Part shown: positions 18,781 through 36,750 of the stretch, one piece after another | Layout of the letters: each line of letters begins with the position of its first letter | How positions within the stretch are numbered: position 1 is the first letter of the stretch | From: a virus | Reading direction: 5' to 3' (one strand) | Virus record (IMG/VR): IMGVR_UViG_3300044712_000307 | Location: 1-37,387 of that record | DNA length: 37,387 nucleotides | The notes under the pieces: model-generated | What the model was told of the DNA's origin: nothing | Database searches by the model: none | The model's input: only the letters and a program-made list of their open reading frames with translations | Translations under genes and position numbers: made by a program

Positions 18781-19560
18781 ATGAAATCACTACAACGCTG
18801 GCTCGTTCTGCCAGATACGCAAATTCCTTACGAGGATGTGCGAACACTTAAGGCAGTAGAAAGCTATATGAAAGACGTCGCTAAATCTGATCATCCATTC
18901 GATGGTTGGTTGCAACTCGGAGACTTTTTAGACTTCAACGAGTTGTCGAAATATAACGCTGGCTACGAGGCTTCTATCAAGGAAGACGTGGCCGAGACGT
19001 TCGCTGCCGGTAATAGATTCTTGGATAGACAGCAAGCAATCGTTCGCGCCGGAAACAAGAGAGCAAAGTTTGTTCTGTTGCAGGGGAATCATGATTTTAG
19101 AGCAGTAGATTACGCTTTGAAGTTTCCGTTTCTGAGAGGCATCTTGGACTACGAGAAGAATCTGAAGTTGAAAGCTCGCGGGATTAAGTTCGTGAAATGT
19201 TGGGAAAATAAGAGTCAGATGTTTCGACTTGGGAAGGCTTGCTTTATCCACGGCAATAAGGTCAGCACCAACCATGCGAAGCAAATGTGCGAAGTTTATG
19301 GAGCGAATATCTTTTATGGACACCTGCACGATGTCCAAGAATATTCAAAGCAAGTTGTTGGGAAAGACAAAGTTATTTCGGCGAAATCTCTGGGTTGTCT
19401 GTGTCGCCACGATCAGCAATACCTTCGAGGCAATCCGACTAACTGGGTTCAGGCGTTTTCGGAATTTTGGGTTCTTCCGGACGGATTCTTTACTGAACAT
19501 ACAGTTAAGATTTTCAAGCATAGATTTGTAGCGCCGAATGGCAAAGTTTATCAAGGTTGA
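18781..19560 (+). CDS. Calcineurin-like metallophosphoesterase
   Basis: A 259-residue protein with the conserved metallophosphoesterase motifs in order: PDTQ (Asp12), GDFLDF (Asp48), GNHD (residues 102-105), HGN (His157) and GHLH (180-183). These residues hold two metal ions and hydrolyse phosphoesters. Phage members may act on nucleic acids, nucleotides or protein phosphate, and the substrate is not evident. Unlike the structural genes, it has a strong Shine-Dalgarno site (AAAGGAGG, ten bases before the ATG). A terminator follows at 19575-19609. Confidence 0.88.
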   Translation: MKSLQRWLVLPDTQIPYEDVRTLKAVESYMKDVAKSDHPFDGWLQLGDFLDFNELSKYNAGYEASIKEDVAETFAAGNRFLDRQQAIVRAGNKRAKFVLLQGNHDFRAVDYALKFPFLRGILDYEKNLKLKARGIKFVKCWENKSQMFRLGKACFIHGNKVSTNHAKQMCEVYGANIFYGHLHDVQEYSKQVVGKDKVISAKSLGCLCRHDQQYLRGNPTNWVQAFSEFWVLPDGFFTEHTVKIFKHRFVAPNGKVYQG

Positions 19561-19574
19561 GAAAGTTCACTACG

Positions 19575-19609
19575 AGGAGCATAGCTAGACTAGCTCCTTT
19601 ATTTTTTTT
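19575..19609 (+). terminator. Rho-independent terminator
   Basis: AGGAGC at 19575-19580 pairs with GCTCCT at 19593-19598, with an inner TAG/CTA extension around one bulged A. The stem is followed by a T-rich tail ending in eight Ts (19602-19609). It ends the phosphoesterase transcript. Confidence 0.75.
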
Positions 19610-19619
19610 CCAACAAAAC

Positions 19620-19679
19620 GCCCAGACTCTCTGGGCTATGTGAAAAACATATAGCCCAGCGAAAGCTGGAAAGGAGGTG
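19620..19679 (+). promoter_or_regulatory. Bistable RNA leader before strong ribosome-binding site
   Basis: GCCCAG 19620-19625 can pair with CTGGGC 19631-19636, and CCAGC 19656-19660 with GCTGG 19665-19669 across a GAAA tetraloop. Alternatively CTGGGCTAT 19631-19639 pairs perfectly with ATAGCCCAG 19651-19659. The two states exclude each other, and the second small hairpin lies just before AAAGGAGG (19670-19677). This resembles an attenuator or translational switch. Confidence 0.5.
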
Positions 19680-19682
19680 AGT

Positions 19683-19886
19683 ATGTTATCTCGGTGCTTC
19701 TTATGTAGCGAATATACAGATGCGGAGTTCGTTGTGAGAGTTGGCAAGTTGTTCGCCCACAAAGAGTGCATAGAGACAATGGCATACCATCTAACGCACC
19801 TTGAAATGAAAATGGAATACGAAATGGCTTCTTTCTTTAGGAGACACCCAGAAATGAAAGGAGGAAAGAATGAGAAGAAAGCATAA
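19683..19886 (+). CDS. Small zinc-ribbon-like protein, 67 aa
   Basis: A 67-residue protein with an N-terminal Cys-X2-Cys (CFLC, residues 5-8) and an HKEC at residues 26-29, a pattern that can bind one zinc ion. The rest is a charged helix. ATG 19683 is preferred because the AAAGGAGGT Shine-Dalgarno site is correctly spaced from it. An in-frame GTG at 19677 overlaps the site. It overlaps the next gene by 17 bases. Function unknown. Small zinc proteins in such phage early operons often bind nucleic acid or host factors. Confidence 0.72.
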   Translation: MLSRCFLCSEYTDAEFVVRVGKLFAHKECIETMAYHLTHLEMKMEYEMASFFRRHPEMKGGKNEKKA

Positions 19887-20103
19887 AGACCATAGGAATA
19901 GACACCACATGTTTCCTAGAAGTCGTGGTGGACCCACCAGAGACGAGAATCTTCTCCTGATTGATACGAATAGACACGTTCTTCTTCATAAGATTTTCGG
20001 CAACCGAACCCTCGGCGAAATCCTCGCAATCCTTCATCGAACTCTCCATGCCAAAGGATATGAGGTCGTGGAGAAATGTCCGCTCTGTGGAGGTGCAAAA
20101 TGA
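19870..20103 (+). CDS. Small HNH-fold-like protein
   Basis: A 77-residue basic protein whose N-terminal part looks like an HNH core: RHHMFPRSRGG at residues 11-21, Asn27, and NRHVLLHKIFGN around residues 35-45. The tail has Cys70-X2-Cys73. HNH proteins are metal-dependent nucleases, but this one is very short and may be only a DNA-binding or nicking domain. It has a clear Shine-Dalgarno site (AAAGGAGG) and overlaps both neighbours, so it belongs to the strongly translated small-gene operon. Confidence 0.7.
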   Translation: MRRKHKDHRNRHHMFPRSRGGPTRDENLLLIDTNRHVLLHKIFGNRTLGEILAILHRTLHAKGYEVVEKCPLCGGAK

Positions 20104-20270
20104 AAGCTGCCTGTCATCGTTGCAAAGAGCTGATTGATTTCAAAGAAGACTGGTGCAAGATAGTTGACGATTATGATTGGCTCTATCACTGGAAGTGCTA
20201 TCTCCTTGCAAGGCGTGACGGACATATGCCGAAGCCCGACTACGTTCACAAGAAAGGAGTAGCGAAATGA
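20100..20270 (+). CDS. Small Cys-containing protein, 56 aa
   Basis: A 56-residue protein with Cys-X2-Cys near the start (CHRC, residues 5-8) and a later HWKC, giving a possible zinc-binding Cys/His set similar to the gene at 19683. The start is the ATG at 20100, which overlaps the preceding stop as ATGA and has a GGAGGT Shine-Dalgarno site eight bases upstream. The family is not recognised. It sits third in a four-gene operon of small zinc-binding-like proteins. Confidence 0.7.
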   Translation: MKAACHRCKELIDFKEDWCKIVDDYDWLYHWKCYLLARRDGHMPKPDYVHKKGVAK

Positions 20271-20449
20271 TACTCAAGCTCAACCTGAAATGCGAAAAGG
20301 GTCACGAGATTGTTGTTTATGAAATTCACTTTGACCTTATGGGACACTTCGTGTTCTCGGTTTATTGCGATGAGTGTAAGGTTGACTCTCAGCTTAGCTT
20401 TGATTACTACGCAGCAGTTCTACAACGTTCTGAACTTAAAGAATGTTAG
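20267..20449 (+). CDS. Small hypothetical protein, 60 aa
   Basis: A 60-residue beta-rich protein with CEKGHE near residue 9 and YCDEC at residues 33-37, a possible two-part zinc ribbon. It overlaps the preceding gene by four bases (ATGA) and has a good Shine-Dalgarno site (AAAGGAG). It ends the small-gene operon, because a strong terminator overlaps its stop codon. No family recognised. Confidence 0.72.
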   Translation: MILKLNLKCEKGHEIVVYEIHFDLMGHFVFSVYCDECKVDSQLSFDYYAAVLQRSELKEC

Positions 20450-20885: not shown

Positions 20886-21034
20886 AAAAGAGCCCTTTGT
20901 TGGAGATAGAAGAGGTGGGGGTAGCGGGACTCGAACCCGCAAAATCTTCCGGATTAAAGGTTTGATAAACCATCGTGTTTACCAATTTCACCATACCCCC
21001 ATTTATTTCTATCCCCGACAAATGGCTCTTTTTA
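20886..21034. repeat. Long imperfect inverted repeat enclosing the tRNA
   Basis: Arms 20886-20911 and 21008-21034 are inverted copies of about 26 bases. They differ at about three positions, one of which is a G-U pair in the minus-strand RNA. They share AAAAGAGCC, TTTGT and GATAGAA blocks. Both outer ends give a T-run on the opposite strand, so each arm pair could act as a terminator. In the tRNA transcript the leader would pair with the trailer, extending the acceptor stem. Confidence 0.7.
20916..21000 (-). tRNA. Class II tRNA (Leu-like body), anticodon unclear
   Basis: The 85-nt minus-strand sequence folds as a full cloverleaf: a seven-pair acceptor stem GGGGGTA/TACCCCC, a D arm GTG/CAC with a GG-containing loop, and a T arm GCGGG/CCCGC with loop TTCGAGT. 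A long variable arm has an AATC/GATT stem, and the discriminator is A followed by CC. These features match tRNA-Leu or tRNA-Ser class II bodies. The anticodon loop by position is TTATCAA, which gives anticodon AUC, and the anticodon stem has one T-T mismatch. AUC does not fit leucine or serine. CCA is not fully encoded. The tRNA is next to the integrase and inside a long inverted repeat. Confidence 0.8.
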
Positions 21035-28468: not shown

Positions 28469-29311
28469 ATGAACGAAGAAAATAAAAAGAGACTTAGAAT
28501 GTTTGGGAACGGAGTAATCGGATTGTTAGTAGTAATGGTATTGTTCGGTTCGTTTGGAACAGTTAAGGCTGGGGAGAGAGGAGTTAAGACAAGACTCGGT
28601 GCTGTGGTAGGGACGGTAGAACCAGGGCTTTACTTCAAACTTCCTCTCATTGAGAAGGTAACCAAGTTAGAAGTTAAGACTCGCACAGTCAACTACGACA
28701 AGAATGGGCACGAAGGAGATGAGGAAGGTATGTCCTCCCTTTCTGGTGCTTCTAAAGACTTACAGGACGTGTCTATCGGGGTAATGGTAAACTACCACGT
28801 TGACCCAGCCAAGGTAGAAGAAATCTATTCACAGTATCGCTCGGTAGACAACTTTGAAGTAAATGTAATTGAACCGATTATCCGAGAGGTGGTTAAATCT
28901 ACATCAGCCCAATACACAGCAGAGGAGTTAGTAACTAAGCGTGCTGAGTATGGAGATAAGGTAAACGCCACCTTGTCAGAAAGATTTGTAACTAAGAATG
29001 CTTTACTTGAAAGATTCAGTGTAACGAACTTTGAGTTCTCTAAAGCTTTCACTCAAGCGATTGAAGCTAAGGTAACCGCAGTTCAGAACGCCGAAGCAGC
29101 GAAGAATAAATTAGAGCAGATTAAATTTGAGGCACAGCAGACTATTGAAACAGCTAAGGCGACAGCAGAATCAATTAGGATTCAGGCTCAAGCTATCACT
29201 CAGCAGGGAGGTGCAGAGTATGTGAGGTTAAAGACGGTTGAAAAGTGGAATGGGAGTTTGCCAGCAACAATGCTCCCTGATTCGTCAATCCCGTTCTTAG
29301 GTAAGTTGTAA
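28469..29311 (+). CDS. SPFH/Band-7 (prohibitin/stomatin-like) membrane protein
   Basis: A 280-residue protein with one N-terminal membrane helix (~12-32) followed by a Band-7/SPFH domain: AGERGVKTRLGAVVGTVEPGLYFKLPLIEKV at ~33-63, then LQDVSIGVMVNYHVDP and a VIEPIIREVVKSTSAQYTAEELVTKR stretch. It ends in an Ala/Glu-rich coiled coil (~195-245) and a short hydrophobic tail. This matches prohibitin-type proteins, which form ring assemblies in membranes and regulate membrane proteases. In a phage it may act on host membrane quality control or lysis timing. It precedes the large non-coding RNA. Confidence 0.9.
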   Translation: MNEENKKRLRMFGNGVIGLLVVMVLFGSFGTVKAGERGVKTRLGAVVGTVEPGLYFKLPLIEKVTKLEVKTRTVNYDKNGHEGDEEGMSSLSGASKDLQDVSIGVMVNYHVDPAKVEEIYSQYRSVDNFEVNVIEPIIREVVKSTSAQYTAEELVTKRAEYGDKVNATLSERFVTKNALLERFSVTNFEFSKAFTQAIEAKVTAVQNAEAAKNKLEQIKFEAQQTIETAKATAESIRIQAQAITQQGGAEYVRLKTVEKWNGSLPATMLPDSSIPFLGKL

Positions 29312-29312
29312 T

Positions 29313-29785
29313 CCACCAGCCCTGGAATGGCTCTAAACTTAACCAGTAGCTATCGGTGAAGGTCGCACAGTAACCACCGAGAAAACTCTCTCAGGCGTTC
29401 CGTCCAAAAAAAGACAGTGCGTGCGGGCGGACAGACAAATGAGGGATTGCTACTAAGGAGAGAGAAGCCAATGGCAACCAGCATAAAGGAGAAGGTTCAT
29501 AAAGGAACAATCTCGCTTCCTAAACCCGAAAGGGTCAATCGCTAACTTCACGCTTCGTGGGGTTGGCTAAGCAAATAAATCCCTTGGAGATGAGGGGGTG
29601 AAAGTAAACAAAACGCAATTCGGGTGCTTTCTGCAAACCTCCAAAAGCGGCTTCCGTATGGTTGCTGTCTATATGCTCCGAGGGTCTTGCTTAAAAATGG
29701 TTCTCAGAATGAGTAGTTCGTGCTTATATTTTTAATCAGTAGGTTAAATCTATTTCAGAGGGCAGGAGCTACTCACTCTGGGAAT
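29313..29785 (+). ncRNA. Large structured non-coding RNA (~470 nt) with pseudoknot, unknown family
   Basis: No gene lies in 29312-29800, yet the sequence holds many helices. Seen pairs: TCGGTG 29353-29358/CACCGA 29375-29380; AGTAGC 29345-29350/GCTACT 29449-29454; CTCTCTC 29386-29392/GAGAGAG 29458-29464, which crosses the previous pair (pseudoknot); TCCGTCC 29399-29405/GGGCGGA 29425-29431; ACCC/GGGT around GAAA at 29524-29535; GCTAAC 29541-29546/GTTGGC 29562-29567 enclosing CACG/CGTG; TTGGAG 29584-29589/CTCCAA 29639-29644 enclosing GAAAG/CTTTC. At the 3' end TTCTCAGAATGAGTAG (29701-29716) pairs with CTACTCACTCTGGGAA (29769-29784) in 15 of 16 positions. Size and complexity are of the GOLLD/ROOL type, but I cannot identify the family. 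Confidence 0.72.
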
Positions 29786-29852
29786 CAATAAAATAAAAAC
29801 ATGAAAACAATAGATAGGCATGGAGAGCATAGGATAGTTAATAAATAAAAAC

Positions 29853-30179
29853 ATGAGACAATTCAAATTCGGCGCAAGCCGGAACAACGACACAGATAAG
29901 TTGGACTTCGAGGGATTCTTGAATCCTTTAGTCCTAGAGGAGTTCGCCAAGTATATGCACAAGCACAGAAAGTTAGAGTCCGGCGAGCTTCGCGGGAGTG
30001 ATAATTGGCAGGCCGGAATAACCAAGGAATCCTATATGAAGTCTATGTGGAGACACCTACACGATCTATGGATGTTTCACCGAGGATATAAGGGCCGGGA
30101 AACAAAGATAGATGCTCTGTGTGGGATTCTCTTCAACGCTCAAGGATACCTACTCGAAGAACTAAGAGACCCCCAATAA
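29853..30179 (+). CDS. dATP/dGTP diphosphohydrolase N-terminal-like (DUF5664-type) protein
   Basis: A 108-residue protein whose pattern recalls the phage DUF5664/'dATP/dGTP diphosphohydrolase N-terminal' family: FGASRNND near the start, a central GELRGSDNWQAGITKESYMKSMWRHLHDLWMFH, and a helical tail with ILFNAQGYLLEEL. The members are found in many phages, often near packaging or early genes. The reaction in this protein is not shown, and the resemblance is moderate. A promoter was not seen. The stop codon lies within a terminator stem. It sits directly upstream of the terminase genes. Confidence 0.65.
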   Translation: MRQFKFGASRNNDTDKLDFEGFLNPLVLEEFAKYMHKHRKLESGELRGSDNWQAGITKESYMKSMWRHLHDLWMFHRGYKGRETKIDALCGILFNAQGYLLEELRDPQ

Positions 30180-30189: not shown

Positions 30190-30226
30190 AGTTGAGAAAA
30201 AACATTGATATATCCAAAGTATCTCC
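30187..30226 (+). promoter_or_regulatory. Putative late promoter/regulatory element TTTAGTTGAGAAAA
   Basis: TTGAGA at 30192-30197 lies 35 bases before the ATG at 30227, as at two other structural genes. A sigma-70 -10 box at the usual distance is not evident (CAAAGT at 30215-30220). It follows a terminator, so it should start the packaging transcript. Confidence 0.5.
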
Positions 30227-30580
30227 ATGCCTAGACAACCTAGTATTTTAATGAAGAAAACGGCGGAGAATACATTGAAGCGCGTTGCTCAAAAGAAACC
30301 CATAGTGATGAGTGAAATTATGGTTGAGAGCGGATATTCTCCAACGACAGCTATAAATCCGGGGAAGAATTTAACCAACAAGCCAGTATGGAAAGAGTTA
30401 ATGTCCGAACTGGTAAACGATGAGCTAATTATAAAGAGAATCAACCGAGCCCTGATCAGCGATGATAACCGTGCAGCATTACAAGCGGCGGATATGTTAT
30501 TGAAACTCAAGGATAGATACCCTGCGGGGAAATTAAAGGTCCAAGAATACAACGAAGAGCTGGAGAGATTGCAAGGGTAA
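30227..30580 (+). CDS. terS: Terminase small subunit-like protein
   Basis: A 117-residue protein. Residues ~15-50 look like a helix-turn-helix (KKPIVMSEIMVESGYSPTTAINPGKNL), as in terminase small subunits, and the C-terminal region is a long helix suited to oligomerisation. It would recognise the packaging site and recruit the large subunit, coded 557 bases downstream after a repeat-rich stretch. The start has no Shine-Dalgarno site but is 35 bases from the TTGAGA element. Confidence 0.75.
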   Translation: MPRQPSILMKKTAENTLKRVAQKKPIVMSEIMVESGYSPTTAINPGKNLTNKPVWKELMSELVNDELIIKRINRALISDDNRAALQAADMLLKLKDRYPAGKLKVQEYNEELERLQG

Positions 30581-31137
30581 ACAGAGATGATTCCACGATA
30601 TGGAAACAAATAGGTGAATTTCGTGGGATATATCAATTTCGGTGGGAAAGATATTTCCATCCTCAGAGAGTAACAACACAGAGAGAAGAACTCCTAGAGC
30701 ACCCCGCCTTTATCAGAAGAACCCCAGAGAACTCTGCATTAGTAAAAGAACCCAGCCGTATTTTGCCTTAAGTGAAAGAACCCGGGGCATTTCTGAATTA
30801 AGTAGGAGAACCAGTTAAGGTCTCGCGCACACACCTAAAAAGACAGAACACTCCCAACCCGAGCCAAAACTAGCCCTTTTACCTGTCAGAAAATGCCCAT
30901 AACCACAAGCCCCAGCTATAAAGCCCCATAATACCTAGCTAAACAGAGCATTTCTCCTGTCGGAGAATACATATTGTGCGACAGGAGACCGGGGGAGGGC
31001 ACCACCCAAGAGCGCGCGCTATTAGAACGATGTGCTCATCCCACAACCCCGGGAAATCTGACAAGAGGGGTCGCAGACAAGAGGGTTCACAGGGCAGGGG
31101 CAGAGCGCAGAGACATGGCAAGAGCACACAACAACAC
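30581..31137. other. Non-coding stretch with repeats between terminase genes (possible packaging site)
   Basis: No convincing gene exists here. Five AGAAC-centred repeats with a 29-31-bp period occur at 30687, 30718, 30747, 30777 and 30807. They share AGTNAAAGAACCC and intervening TTTGCNTTA-like sequence. A perfect inverted repeat TCTCCTGTCG (30953-30962)/CGACAGGAGA (30979-30988) has a 16-base spacer. GACAAGAGGG occurs twice near 31059 and 31076. The DNA is rich in A and C. Confidence 0.55.
30687..30811 (+). repeat. Five direct repeats of ~30-bp period near terminase
   Basis: AGAAC starts at 30687, 30718, 30747, 30777 and 30807, so spacing is 31, 29, 30 and 30. The better-conserved units share AGT(A/G)AAAGAACCC, while intervening sequence varies. 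Such iterons next to terS often bind the small subunit. Confidence 0.6.
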
Positions 31138-32400
31138 ATGATTAACACAGACAAACTAATCCAAGTAATAGGATTCACACCACACAAGAACCAGCTAGAG
31201 ATAATGAACTGCAAGGAGAGGGAGATTTACATAGCTGCTGGTAGGCGCTTTGGGAAGTCCGCTATCTCCGCCCTTTTAGCTTTAAGAGTCCTTTTGCAAG
31301 ATAACAAGAAGGTTTGGATAGTAGCCCCGACTTATGACTTAACAGGTAAAGTGTTTGAATATCTGGTTAAGTGGTTTAGTAAGGCTGTTCCTAGTCAGAG
31401 AGGGAATATCACCTACCGACCCTATCCGAAGATTAAGACAGCGAGAGGGAGCATCCTTGAATGTCGCTCTACTGAGAATCCTACCGGACTTTTAGGAGAT
31501 GAGGTTGATTTAATTATTATCGATGAAGCGGCGAGAATCCCACGCTATATCTTTGACCAGTATCTTTATCCGGTAACGTCTTCGAGAAAGGGCCAGATCG
31601 TGGCTATCTCCACCCCTTTTGGAAAGAATTGGTTTTATGAGCGGTGGATGAAGACCAAAGAGACCAATAGCTCGTTCCAGTTTTCTTCTTTGGATGGAGC
31701 GTCTATTGATATGGAGGAATGGGAGAGGACTAAAAACATCCTGCCCGAACAGCTATTTAAACAAGAGTATATGGCTTTGTTCCTCGAAGAAGCAGCATCC
31801 GTCTTTAGAGGGGTGACTTCTATCGTTAAAGAGAAATGTCTATCCGATGCCATTCCTTCGCATACCTACGTTATGGGCGTTGATTTAGCTAAGATAAACG
31901 ACTTCTCAGTTTTAACCGTAGTAGACACCTATTCACACGAGGTCGTGGCATGGGAGAGATTCAAGGAGCTAGACTACAACCTACAAAAAGCTCGCATCAA
32001 GGCTCTGGCCCAGAGATACAACAACGCCAGAATAATCATCGACTCAACCGGAGTTGGTAATCCGATTAGCGAAGACCTACGCAGAGAGTCTTTGATGATT
32101 GAGGACTTTAAATTCTCGAATAAATCCAAGCAGGAGCTAATCGAGAAGCTAGCTATCTTTATTGAGCAGAAAGGTATTTATATTCCGAATAATGTAATTA
32201 TAATCGACGAGCTTTCTTCTTATGGATACCAGATGACCGAGTCTGGGAATTTTAAATACTCTGCGCCATCTGGATTACACGACGATGCGGTCATCTCTTT
32301 AGGTCTGGCAGTTTGGGGACTCGACTCTGCCACCACCAACAACCCCAGCTATATATCTAAAAACAAGGAGCGAAAAACTAAACGATTCCAATATATTTAG
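31138..32400 (+). CDS. terL: Terminase large subunit
   Basis: A 420-residue ATPase-nuclease. The ATPase part has Walker A GRRFGKS (35-41), Walker B LIIIDE (125-130) and a STPFG coupling motif (~158-162). The nuclease part has acidic residues Asp249 (MGVDLA), Asp302 (IIIDSTG) and Asp382/Asp383 (GLHDDA). It powers DNA packaging into the capsid and cuts concatemers. I take ATG 31138 as start. In-frame sequence upstream is low-complexity and not like a terminase. The TAG stop touches another TTGAGA element. Confidence 0.95.
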   Translation: MINTDKLIQVIGFTPHKNQLEIMNCKEREIYIAAGRRFGKSAISALLALRVLLQDNKKVWIVAPTYDLTGKVFEYLVKWFSKAVPSQRGNITYRPYPKIKTARGSILECRSTENPTGLLGDEVDLIIIDEAARIPRYIFDQYLYPVTSSRKGQIVAISTPFGKNWFYERWMKTKETNSSFQFSSLDGASIDMEEWERTKNILPEQLFKQEYMALFLEEAASVFRGVTSIVKEKCLSDAIPSHTYVMGVDLAKINDFSVLTVVDTYSHEVVAWERFKELDYNLQKARIKALAQRYNNARIIIDSTGVGNPISEDLRRESLMIEDFKFSNKSKQELIEKLAIFIEQKGIYIPNNVIIIDELSSYGYQMTESGNFKYSAPSGLHDDAVISLGLAVWGLDSATTNNPSYISKNKERKTKRFQYI

Positions 32401-35179: not shown

Positions 35180-35338
35180 ATGGCAGTTACTACTGACGCA
35201 TATACTTCTTCTGATTTGGCCGCGATGATTCCGGAAGTGTGGGCTCCTATTGTAAACGAACCCCTTTTCCCGAAAGCTGTCGCTGCTAACTTCTTCACTG
35301 ATTTGTCCGAATACGTGGTCGAAGGAGGTGACATCGTT
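35180..35338 (+). CDS. Major capsid protein, exon 1 (residues 1-53)
   Basis: The 53-codon frame from ATG 35180 reads into a stop at 35339-35341, exactly where the intron begins. It carries the N-terminal part of the coat protein, ending in VVEGGDIV. After removing 35339-35991 the frame continues HVPNIFTNTFSV without a break, giving a 305-residue protein. The exon end (GACATCGTT) is the partner of the intron's internal guide sequence. Confidence 0.88.
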
Positions 35339-35991
35339 TAACACAATGGACGATGTAAAATTGGGCAAAATGCTGGAACACCCTTAGAGCTTCAGAGACT
35401 AATATGTAAAACTTCTGAAGATTGGGCAATCAGCAGGTCAAGACTACAAAACACAATGAACATTCAAAATTTATCTTGGTTAGCAGGCCTCTGGGAAGGA
35501 GAAGGTTCTGTCAGTATTTTCAAAAATACTCGCGAAACTGGAACCACAAAATTAACGATGACATTAACAATCGTTAACACCGACCCAGCCCTGATACTGG
35601 AAGTTCTAAAAATTGCTGACGAGCTTGGAGTAACATTTCATATGTTTGAAAACAAGCACGACAATCCGAAATGGGCTAACTCTTATCAGTTAACCAATCG
35701 CAAGCTCGAAACGAACAAAATATTTTTAGAAGCCATCCTGCCCTATATGCGTGGACAGAAGAAACAAATCACAGAGTTGGCGCTTCGATTCATAGATTCT
35801 CGTTTGGCAAAACTTTCCGAAAATAGGAATTTCCCAAATACAGAAGAAGAAGTCCAAATCTTTGAAAAAGTTTCGTCCATGAATAAGAAGGGAATAACCA
35901 AAGACAGTCAAATCCTCAACGACTATACGCTCAACTCCGCAAGGAGATGATATAGTCTGCTCTCATGTGAAAGCATGAGTTAACACATAGG
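35339..35991 (+). ncRNA. Group I self-splicing intron in the major capsid gene
   Basis: The exon end ACATCGTT pairs with internal guide GACGATGT (about 35351-35358), giving P1 with the conserved U-G at the splice site. P7 is AGACTA (35441-35446)/TAGTCT (35953-35958), in the typical R (CAAGACTAC) and S (GATGATATAGTCTG) settings. A CTCATG/CATGAG hairpin follows as P9, and the last intron base is G35991. The endonuclease frame lies between the P7 strands. The intron is 653 nt. The P3-P6 details are not fully resolved. Confidence 0.9.
35456..35950 (+). CDS. LAGLIDADG homing endonuclease inside the intron
   Basis: A 164-residue protein with one LAGLIDADG-type motif (LAGLWEGEGS at ~9-18, where Glu replaces the usual Asp-Gly spacing), followed by a beta-helix fold of the family. 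A single copy means it should act as a homodimer, cutting intron-less capsid alleles so the intron can spread. Its last codons overlap the conserved S element of the intron, so protein and ribozyme share DNA. The start follows ACACAATG and has no Shine-Dalgarno site. Confidence 0.9.
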   Translation: MNIQNLSWLAGLWEGEGSVSIFKNTRETGTTKLTMTLTIVNTDPALILEVLKIADELGVTFHMFENKHDNPKWANSYQLTNRKLETNKIFLEAILPYMRGQKKQITELALRFIDSRLAKLSENRNFPNTEEEVQIFEKVSSMNKKGITKDSQILNDYTLNSARR

Positions 35992-36750
35992 CACGTCCCA
36001 AATATCTTCACTAACACTTTCTCGGTCTTAACCCAGACTACTCAGGGTGCTGAAATCACCACTGAATCAGTCGCTCAGGTTGACACGACCTTGACTGTTA
36101 GCTTGCACAAATATGTTGCCTTTATAATCGGCGACAAAGACTTGGCTCAGCTCGCTACTAAATACTCTCTTAACGAGAAGTATGCTACCGAGTGCCAAAA
36201 CTTGTTAGTGCAGGCATTGGAAGATTCTTTGTTCGGTCTTTGGTCATCGCTTTCAACTAACGTCGTAGGAGACACCGCTACCGCTTTGAAAGATCCGGAA
36301 ATCCGTGCCTCTATCGCGAAGTTGGATACTTTGAACTACGACCTTTCAGAGTGTGCATTCTTCTTCCATCCGTTTGTTTACTGGAATCAGCTTGGAGGTA
36401 TCACTGCATACTACTCCAAGAACATCTCTGATTTCTCCTTTATCAAGACTGGCAACTTCGGTCCTATGGACAAGAGCCGTGGCTTGAAGGGAGTTCTCTT
36501 TGATATTCCGGTATTCACTTCGTCTCGAGTCGTTTCCGGTCTCGCTACTTATCGAAACATCTTAGCTCATAAGTCTGCTCTTGGCTTCGCCATTCAGACT
36601 CGTGGAGGACAGAGAGTTCGAGTGCAGGCTGAAAACGCAATCAGGAACTTAGGTATGCTGACCGTTGTTGACATGATTTACGGTGTAGCAGTTCTTCGTG
36701 AACCAGCTGCTGTCTTAATCAATGCCAACTCCGCTCTCGTCACTTCCTAA
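35992..36750 (+). CDS. Major capsid protein, exon 2 (residues 54-305)
   Basis: This frame continues the capsid protein from residue 54 (HVPNIF) to TAA 36750. Joined to exon 1 it gives 305 residues. It contains an extended Thr/Val-rich region (EITTESVAQVDTTLTVSLHKYV), a long helical centre (DKDLAQLATKYSLNEKYATECQNLL) and a beta-rich domain, the usual order of HK97-fold or P22-like coat proteins. Codon use is smooth on both sides of the intron. Translation without splicing would stop after residue 53, so splicing is needed to build the capsid. Confidence 0.88.
   Translation, partial: HVPNIFTNTFSVLTQTTQGAEITTESVAQVDTTLTVSLHKYVAFIIGDKDLAQLATKYSLNEKYATECQNLLVQALEDSLFGLWSSLSTNVVGDTATALKDPEIRASIAKLDTLNYDLSECAFFFHPFVYWNQLGGITAYYSKNISDFSFIKTGNFGPMDKSRGLKGVLFDIPVFTSSRVVSGLATYRNILAHKSALGFAIQTRGGQRVRVQAENAIRNLGMLTVVDMIYGVAVLREPAAVLINANSALVTS

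Follow-up and report, generated by a model that had tools for sequence, protein, structure and literature searches.

A strand-specific structured segment between an SPFH gene and the packaging genes of a viral genome

A stretch of about 480 bases between an SPFH gene and the packaging genes of an uncultured viral sequence (the window, meaning the whole 37,387-nucleotide stretch of DNA analysed) holds no gene and has a definite fold on the plus strand, mostly at 29476-29787. Tentatively, and short of an even chance, we read 29312-29795 as an untranslated, probably processed, strand-specific structured segment of a co-directional transcript that runs from the SPFH gene to the packaging genes. 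Large structured phage RNAs are few and their functions unknown; a relative-less one that precedes packaging genes would provide a fresh test case.

A gene-free gap with a definite plus-strand fold

The sequence-only reading of this DNA had described a gap without a gene, and a scan of the open reading frames agrees: no plus-strand ORF of at least 60 aa lies in 29312-29852, and the longest inside is 45 aa. The upstream neighbour is an SPFH / Band 7 (prohibitin-like) protein gene (28469-29311, plus strand; Pfam PF01145, E=3.8e-33) with its stop at 29311, and the next plus-strand ORF of at least 60 aa begins at 29853. It encodes a 108-aa protein (29853-30179, plus strand) with a weak likeness to the dATP/dGTP diphosphohydrolase N-terminal domain (Pfam PF18909, E=4e-4, below the cut-off). 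The genes flanking the gap are all on the plus strand. The untranslated region itself (29312-29795, plus strand) is delimited by the ORF scan and by fold statistics, and a possible 15-codon ORF (29801-29848, plus strand), read from the sequence and from direct repeat D6, follows 3' of its long hairpin. Could the region descend from a decayed gene? Its 27 translated fragments gave no convincing match to the proteins of relatives, the best reaching E=3e-4 over 35 residues with the low-complexity filter off, and this origin was rejected.

Further downstream, the gene for the terminase large subunit (31138-32400, plus strand; PHROG 2, E=1.2e-45) has a start revised from the sequence, 31138 replacing a GTG at 30976. 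The 560-nt gap before it (30581-31140) is a candidate packaging site. Within this gap, a unit of 30-40 nt with (A)AAGAACCC at its centre recurs imperfectly about four times in 30710-30815, a repeat that Tandem Repeats Finder did not report, and 30953-30988 holds a 17-nt palindrome. A perfect 12-nt complement links the leader of the genes downstream of the RNA region (29815-29826) to the start codon region of a 117-aa gene (30222-30233; start at 30227). The two could pair in the mRNA; about 0.1 such pairs are expected by chance, and a second pair lies nearby.

The fold of 29305-29800 is strand-specific, with a z of -5.28 on the plus strand against -1.41 on the minus strand in a shuffle comparison. 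On the plus strand the dG of the whole region is -163.7 against -130.9 +/- 6.4 for shuffles, none of 200 being as stable. The earlier count of at least nine helices holds up: when a helix is defined by at least 4 pairs with a mean pair probability of at least 0.9, the region has 16 against 4.75 expected, a number matched by 1 of 200 dinucleotide shuffles, and these helices contain 113 pairs against 32 in shuffles. In a 240-nt scan of the whole window, 29641-29880 and 29521-29760 (plus strand) are among the five lowest windows, behind the tRNA region and 19561-19800. The tRNA gene at 20914-21000 (minus strand) adjoins the integrase gene; ARAGORN assigns it the anticodon ATC (Asp), but in its length of 85 nt and its D arm it resembles a leucine tRNA, so that it may be either a tRNA with an odd anticodon or an attachment-site relic.

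The fold signal is uneven along the region, being concentrated in 29476-29695, where none of 200 shuffles is as stable on the plus strand, and in the 3' hairpin. The first of these begins with three predicted hairpins at 29486-29567 (plus strand): 29486-29518, 29524-29535 with a GAAA loop, and 29541-29567 with 12 bp; the enclosing 29476-29570 has a z of -4.0. GNRA-type loops had been proposed in the plural, and the predicted fold contains one, the GAAA at 29528-29531. A branched arm follows (29568-29693, plus strand), in which two sub-hairpins sit on a stem of 7 bp + 9 bp (29581-29589/29676-29684); its pair probabilities are 0.90-1.00, and 1 of 200 shuffles is as stable. The near-perfect stem noticed earlier at the 3' end is borne out as a long hairpin at 29698-29787 (plus strand; 0 of 100 shuffles as stable) with 28 aligned positions (29698-29725/29760-29787), 26 of them paired: 21 are Watson-Crick, 5 G-U, 1 A.C and 1 G.G. 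Its z is -10.2 on the plus strand and -4.9 on the minus strand, and the G-U bias, in counts that are small, fits a pattern of selection for plus-strand RNA pairing.

The 5' third (29312-29475) is by energy not more stable than shuffles (z -0.37). Its predicted domain at 29345-29454 (plus strand) has pair probabilities of 0.96-0.97 at a shuffle-like local energy: P1, formed by AGTAGC (29345-29350) and GCTACT (29449-29454), encloses a hairpin (29353-29357/29376-29380) and an arm (29387-29393/29440-29446 and 29399-29405/29425-29431). A pseudoknot had been suggested here, with CTCTCTC (29386-29392) pairing across P1 with GAGAGAG (29458-29464). All four strings exist and cross, but equally many crossed helices occur in 17 of 200 full-region shuffles (61 of 200 once the 3' hairpin is left out), and CTCTCTC has a competing nested partner in TGAGGGA (29440-29446; pair probability 0.96). 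The duplex energies are -10.5 kcal/mol for the crossing pair against -8.3 kcal/mol for the nested one. Because chance can give as many crossings and the strand has a nested partner, the pseudoknot is not counted as shown.

Transcription and a possible processing hairpin

No terminator was found at the gap, and the only promoter-like site there, a weak one, falls within the 3' hairpin, so that the RNA would most simply arise by read-through from SPFH. The starts at 29801 and 29853 both follow AAATAAAAACATGA and sit in AAATAAAAACATG, an A-rich setting like that of most starts of this genome: a Shine-Dalgarno sequence is absent from nearly all sampled gene starts, and A-rich DNA precedes many. 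A gene cluster at 18781-20449 has strong AAAGGAGG ribosome-binding sites, unlike almost all other sampled genes, and was possibly acquired from a different background.

A model can be proposed in which the RNA region is transcribed together with the neighbouring genes and the 3' hairpin, with its 26 paired positions, serves as a double-strand cleavage or stabilising site of the RNase III type. The hairpin would thereby divide the SPFH message from the one downstream, which has its first start codons beyond the hairpin in A-rich sequence without structure. The upstream hairpins and the branched arm would be left either as a stable 3' terminus on the SPFH message or as a released RNA, and the hairpins that precede the 3' hairpin may protect the upstream message. 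The long, nearly perfect duplex expected of an RNase III-type site is present at 29698-29787 (26 of 28 positions paired), provided that it is transcribed, as we infer. Such a role is put forward with low confidence, from the length and position of the hairpin.

Relatives and alternative readings

Could the region instead act as a molecule of its own? The main rival, which we think unlikely, is a free-standing, trans-acting large phage RNA, a GOLLD/ROOL-like discrete folded and possibly multimeric particle of a new class. The size close to 490 nt, the gene-free gap and the 16 high-confidence helices speak for it. The sequence-only reading had called the region a phage-encoded structural RNA of the GOLLD or ROOL type or of a new one; the strand-specific structured signal is supported (z -5.3 against -1.4), but the GOLLD/ROOL identity is not, as cmscan of 29250-29860 against Rfam at E<=5 listed none of GOLLD, ROOL and OLE and returned only implausible plant or animal families. 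The whole window at the Rfam gathering score matched only a tRNA elsewhere, and no known family was found to fit the RNA at 29312-29795. A structure model of 29481-29695 searched against 93 other virus records matched the window alone, whereas the GOLLD and ROOL classes are recurrent; a 5' third no better than shuffles and a gap free of terminator and convincing promoter signals also argue against a free-standing molecule. The idea that 29312-29795 is the first example of its own class of large structured RNA, produced by a phage as a separate molecule, among viruses that keep elaborate, fast-changing RNAs beside SPFH, is quite improbable. A phi29-type packaging RNA was rejected, since the virus has an ordinary large terminase.

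The search for homologues also bears on a second rival, no likelier than the main one, in which the stretch acts at the DNA level or is non-functional (a chance-rich spacer, a decayed gene or a mobile-element leftover) and only the 3' inverted repeat is special. blastn of the region against 50,697 phage records found nothing, and against plasmids only a 30-base match judged to be chance; taken together, blastn, nhmmer and tblastn against relatives, phages and plasmids gave no convincing match. Relatives of the SPFH protein and of the downstream protein led to about 90 virus records, from which very near records are possibly missing; a DNA search of 24 of these and scans of all fetched loci found no copy of the region, and a TerL-based pattern search for close relatives found none. 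With no homologue found, the claim of an RNA in the window stands on one sequence. This lack of conservation in any collection searched is what a non-functional stretch predicts, as is the shuffle-like stability of the 5' third, and further spacers in these viruses likewise contain long inverted repeats and repeats. The strand asymmetry, the stability of 29476-29695 and the G-U-biased departures in the 3' hairpin count against it, as do the translated fragments, which lack a convincing protein match in relatives. A third rival to the processed-segment reading of 29312-29795 involves a separate RNA family.

This family, a pseudoknot plus a long arm, was reached through a by-eye likeness of the window to L005 (CGGTG..CACCGARAAAACTYYYYC) followed by pattern scans of viral and genome sequences. 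It is found in three other viruses, at L005:1326-1481, L273:581-733 (= G002:29880-30032) and L064:11764-11919; a small model, R1, made from L005 and L064 then matched 29873-29916 (E=7e-5) of G002, whose SPFH protein is the closest relative, at 76% identity. Two of the three viruses carry relatives of the window's SPFH. The family RNA lies ~590 nt before SPFH in L005 and at the contig end in G002, where it would precede SPFH by ~0.9 kb should the two ends join; L064, a fragment of 20 kb, has no SPFH gene. Its H-type pseudoknot consists of S1 (CGGUG/CACCG), an A-rich linker and S2, in which the S1 loop pairs with the post-linker strand in 3 of 3 members. UCAGACAAMAAUU-hairpin-ACUGA is also present, and the long arm has a CUGG/CCAG-type helix (CCUCG/CGAGG in L064) and an apical GACAAC or GACC-like strand. 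Across the three sequences the 37 pairs of the structure are 91.8% paired, with 16 of 37 changed on both sides; none of 500 shuffles reaches this and slides of 1-3 columns give 41-57%, controls that are favourable in that the structure was partly derived from the same sequences, only three in number. The family has no match in Rfam. Weak model matches were rejected in L138 and L278 as coding sequence and in L279 as partly coding plus a simple hairpin. With three members, a model and a structure, the family is a concrete object for probing RNA roles in SPFH-carrying viruses. Other such viruses have long, strongly folding spacers (L216:1214-2840, L184:3928-4180, L206:11774-11920, L185:5959-6190 and L219:1801-2020), several of which contain nested long-range helices.

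That the window RNA is a diverged member of this family is very doubtful. Its 29345-29454 has the elements in the family order (GUAGC of P1, CGGUG-loop-CACCG, A(G)AAAACUYYYYC, CAGACAA, GYUAC), with an SPFH gene near, as in L005. All five occur together only in the window and the family sequences among 3 Mb compared, a rarity that is inflated because the likeness was picked by eye. The S1 hairpin CGGUG/CACCG and the A-rich linker are present (from 29354 the window reads CGGTG-16 nt-CACCGAGAAAACTCTCTC), but by inspection the S2 pairing is not, the loop AAGGTCGCACAGTAAC having no complement of TCTCTC; the conserved CUGG..CCAG arm is likewise not seen. The family models score the window at 8.5 bits (R1) and 7.2 bits (R2), which is not significant; members score 151-166 bits, by construction. 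Pairwise alignments of the window with the family are not significant either (42/600 and 127/600 shuffles, against 0/600 for L005-L064). The window RNA resembles the 5' core of the family but is not counted as a member.

That 29312-29795 is a self-splicing intron of group I or II, or what is left of one, is barely credible: the capsid gene of this genome does harbour a group I intron that carries a LAGLIDADG gene, but neither Intron_gpI nor a group II intron matched 29250-29860 at permissive E-values, a setting that recovered the capsid intron (RF00028, E=4.4e-4), so that a group I core at the gap would probably have been noticed, and SPFH reaches its normal C-terminus (alignment A1), hence there is no split exon. 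The capsid intron (about 35342-35985) splits a major-head-like gene at 35180-36750 and carries its endonuclease gene at 35456-35950; it is missed at the Rfam gathering score and appears at E=4e-4 under the permissive one.

Comparison with known RNAs

GOLLD and ROOL are RNAs of bacteria and phages whose function is poorly understood, and homo-oligomeric RNA complexes have been described for the GOLLD, ROOL and OLE classes (PMC12286853). The window RNA is likewise large, gene-free and rich in helices, and lies in a phage-like genome. It differs in having no covariance-model match at E<=5 and no family of relatives. An oligomeric cage and kissing loops are features of GOLLD and ROOL. With the group I intron (RF00028) it shares complexity and a genome, but 29312-29795 shows none of the core elements of that intron.

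The preferred reading, a processed segment of a longer transcript, finds its closest parallel in T7-like phages, where RNase III-type processing hairpins occur between genes. In the window, too, a near-perfect hairpin of some length separates co-directional genes, with the next start codons after it; unlike at the T7 sites, hundreds of structured bases precede the putative processing hairpin.
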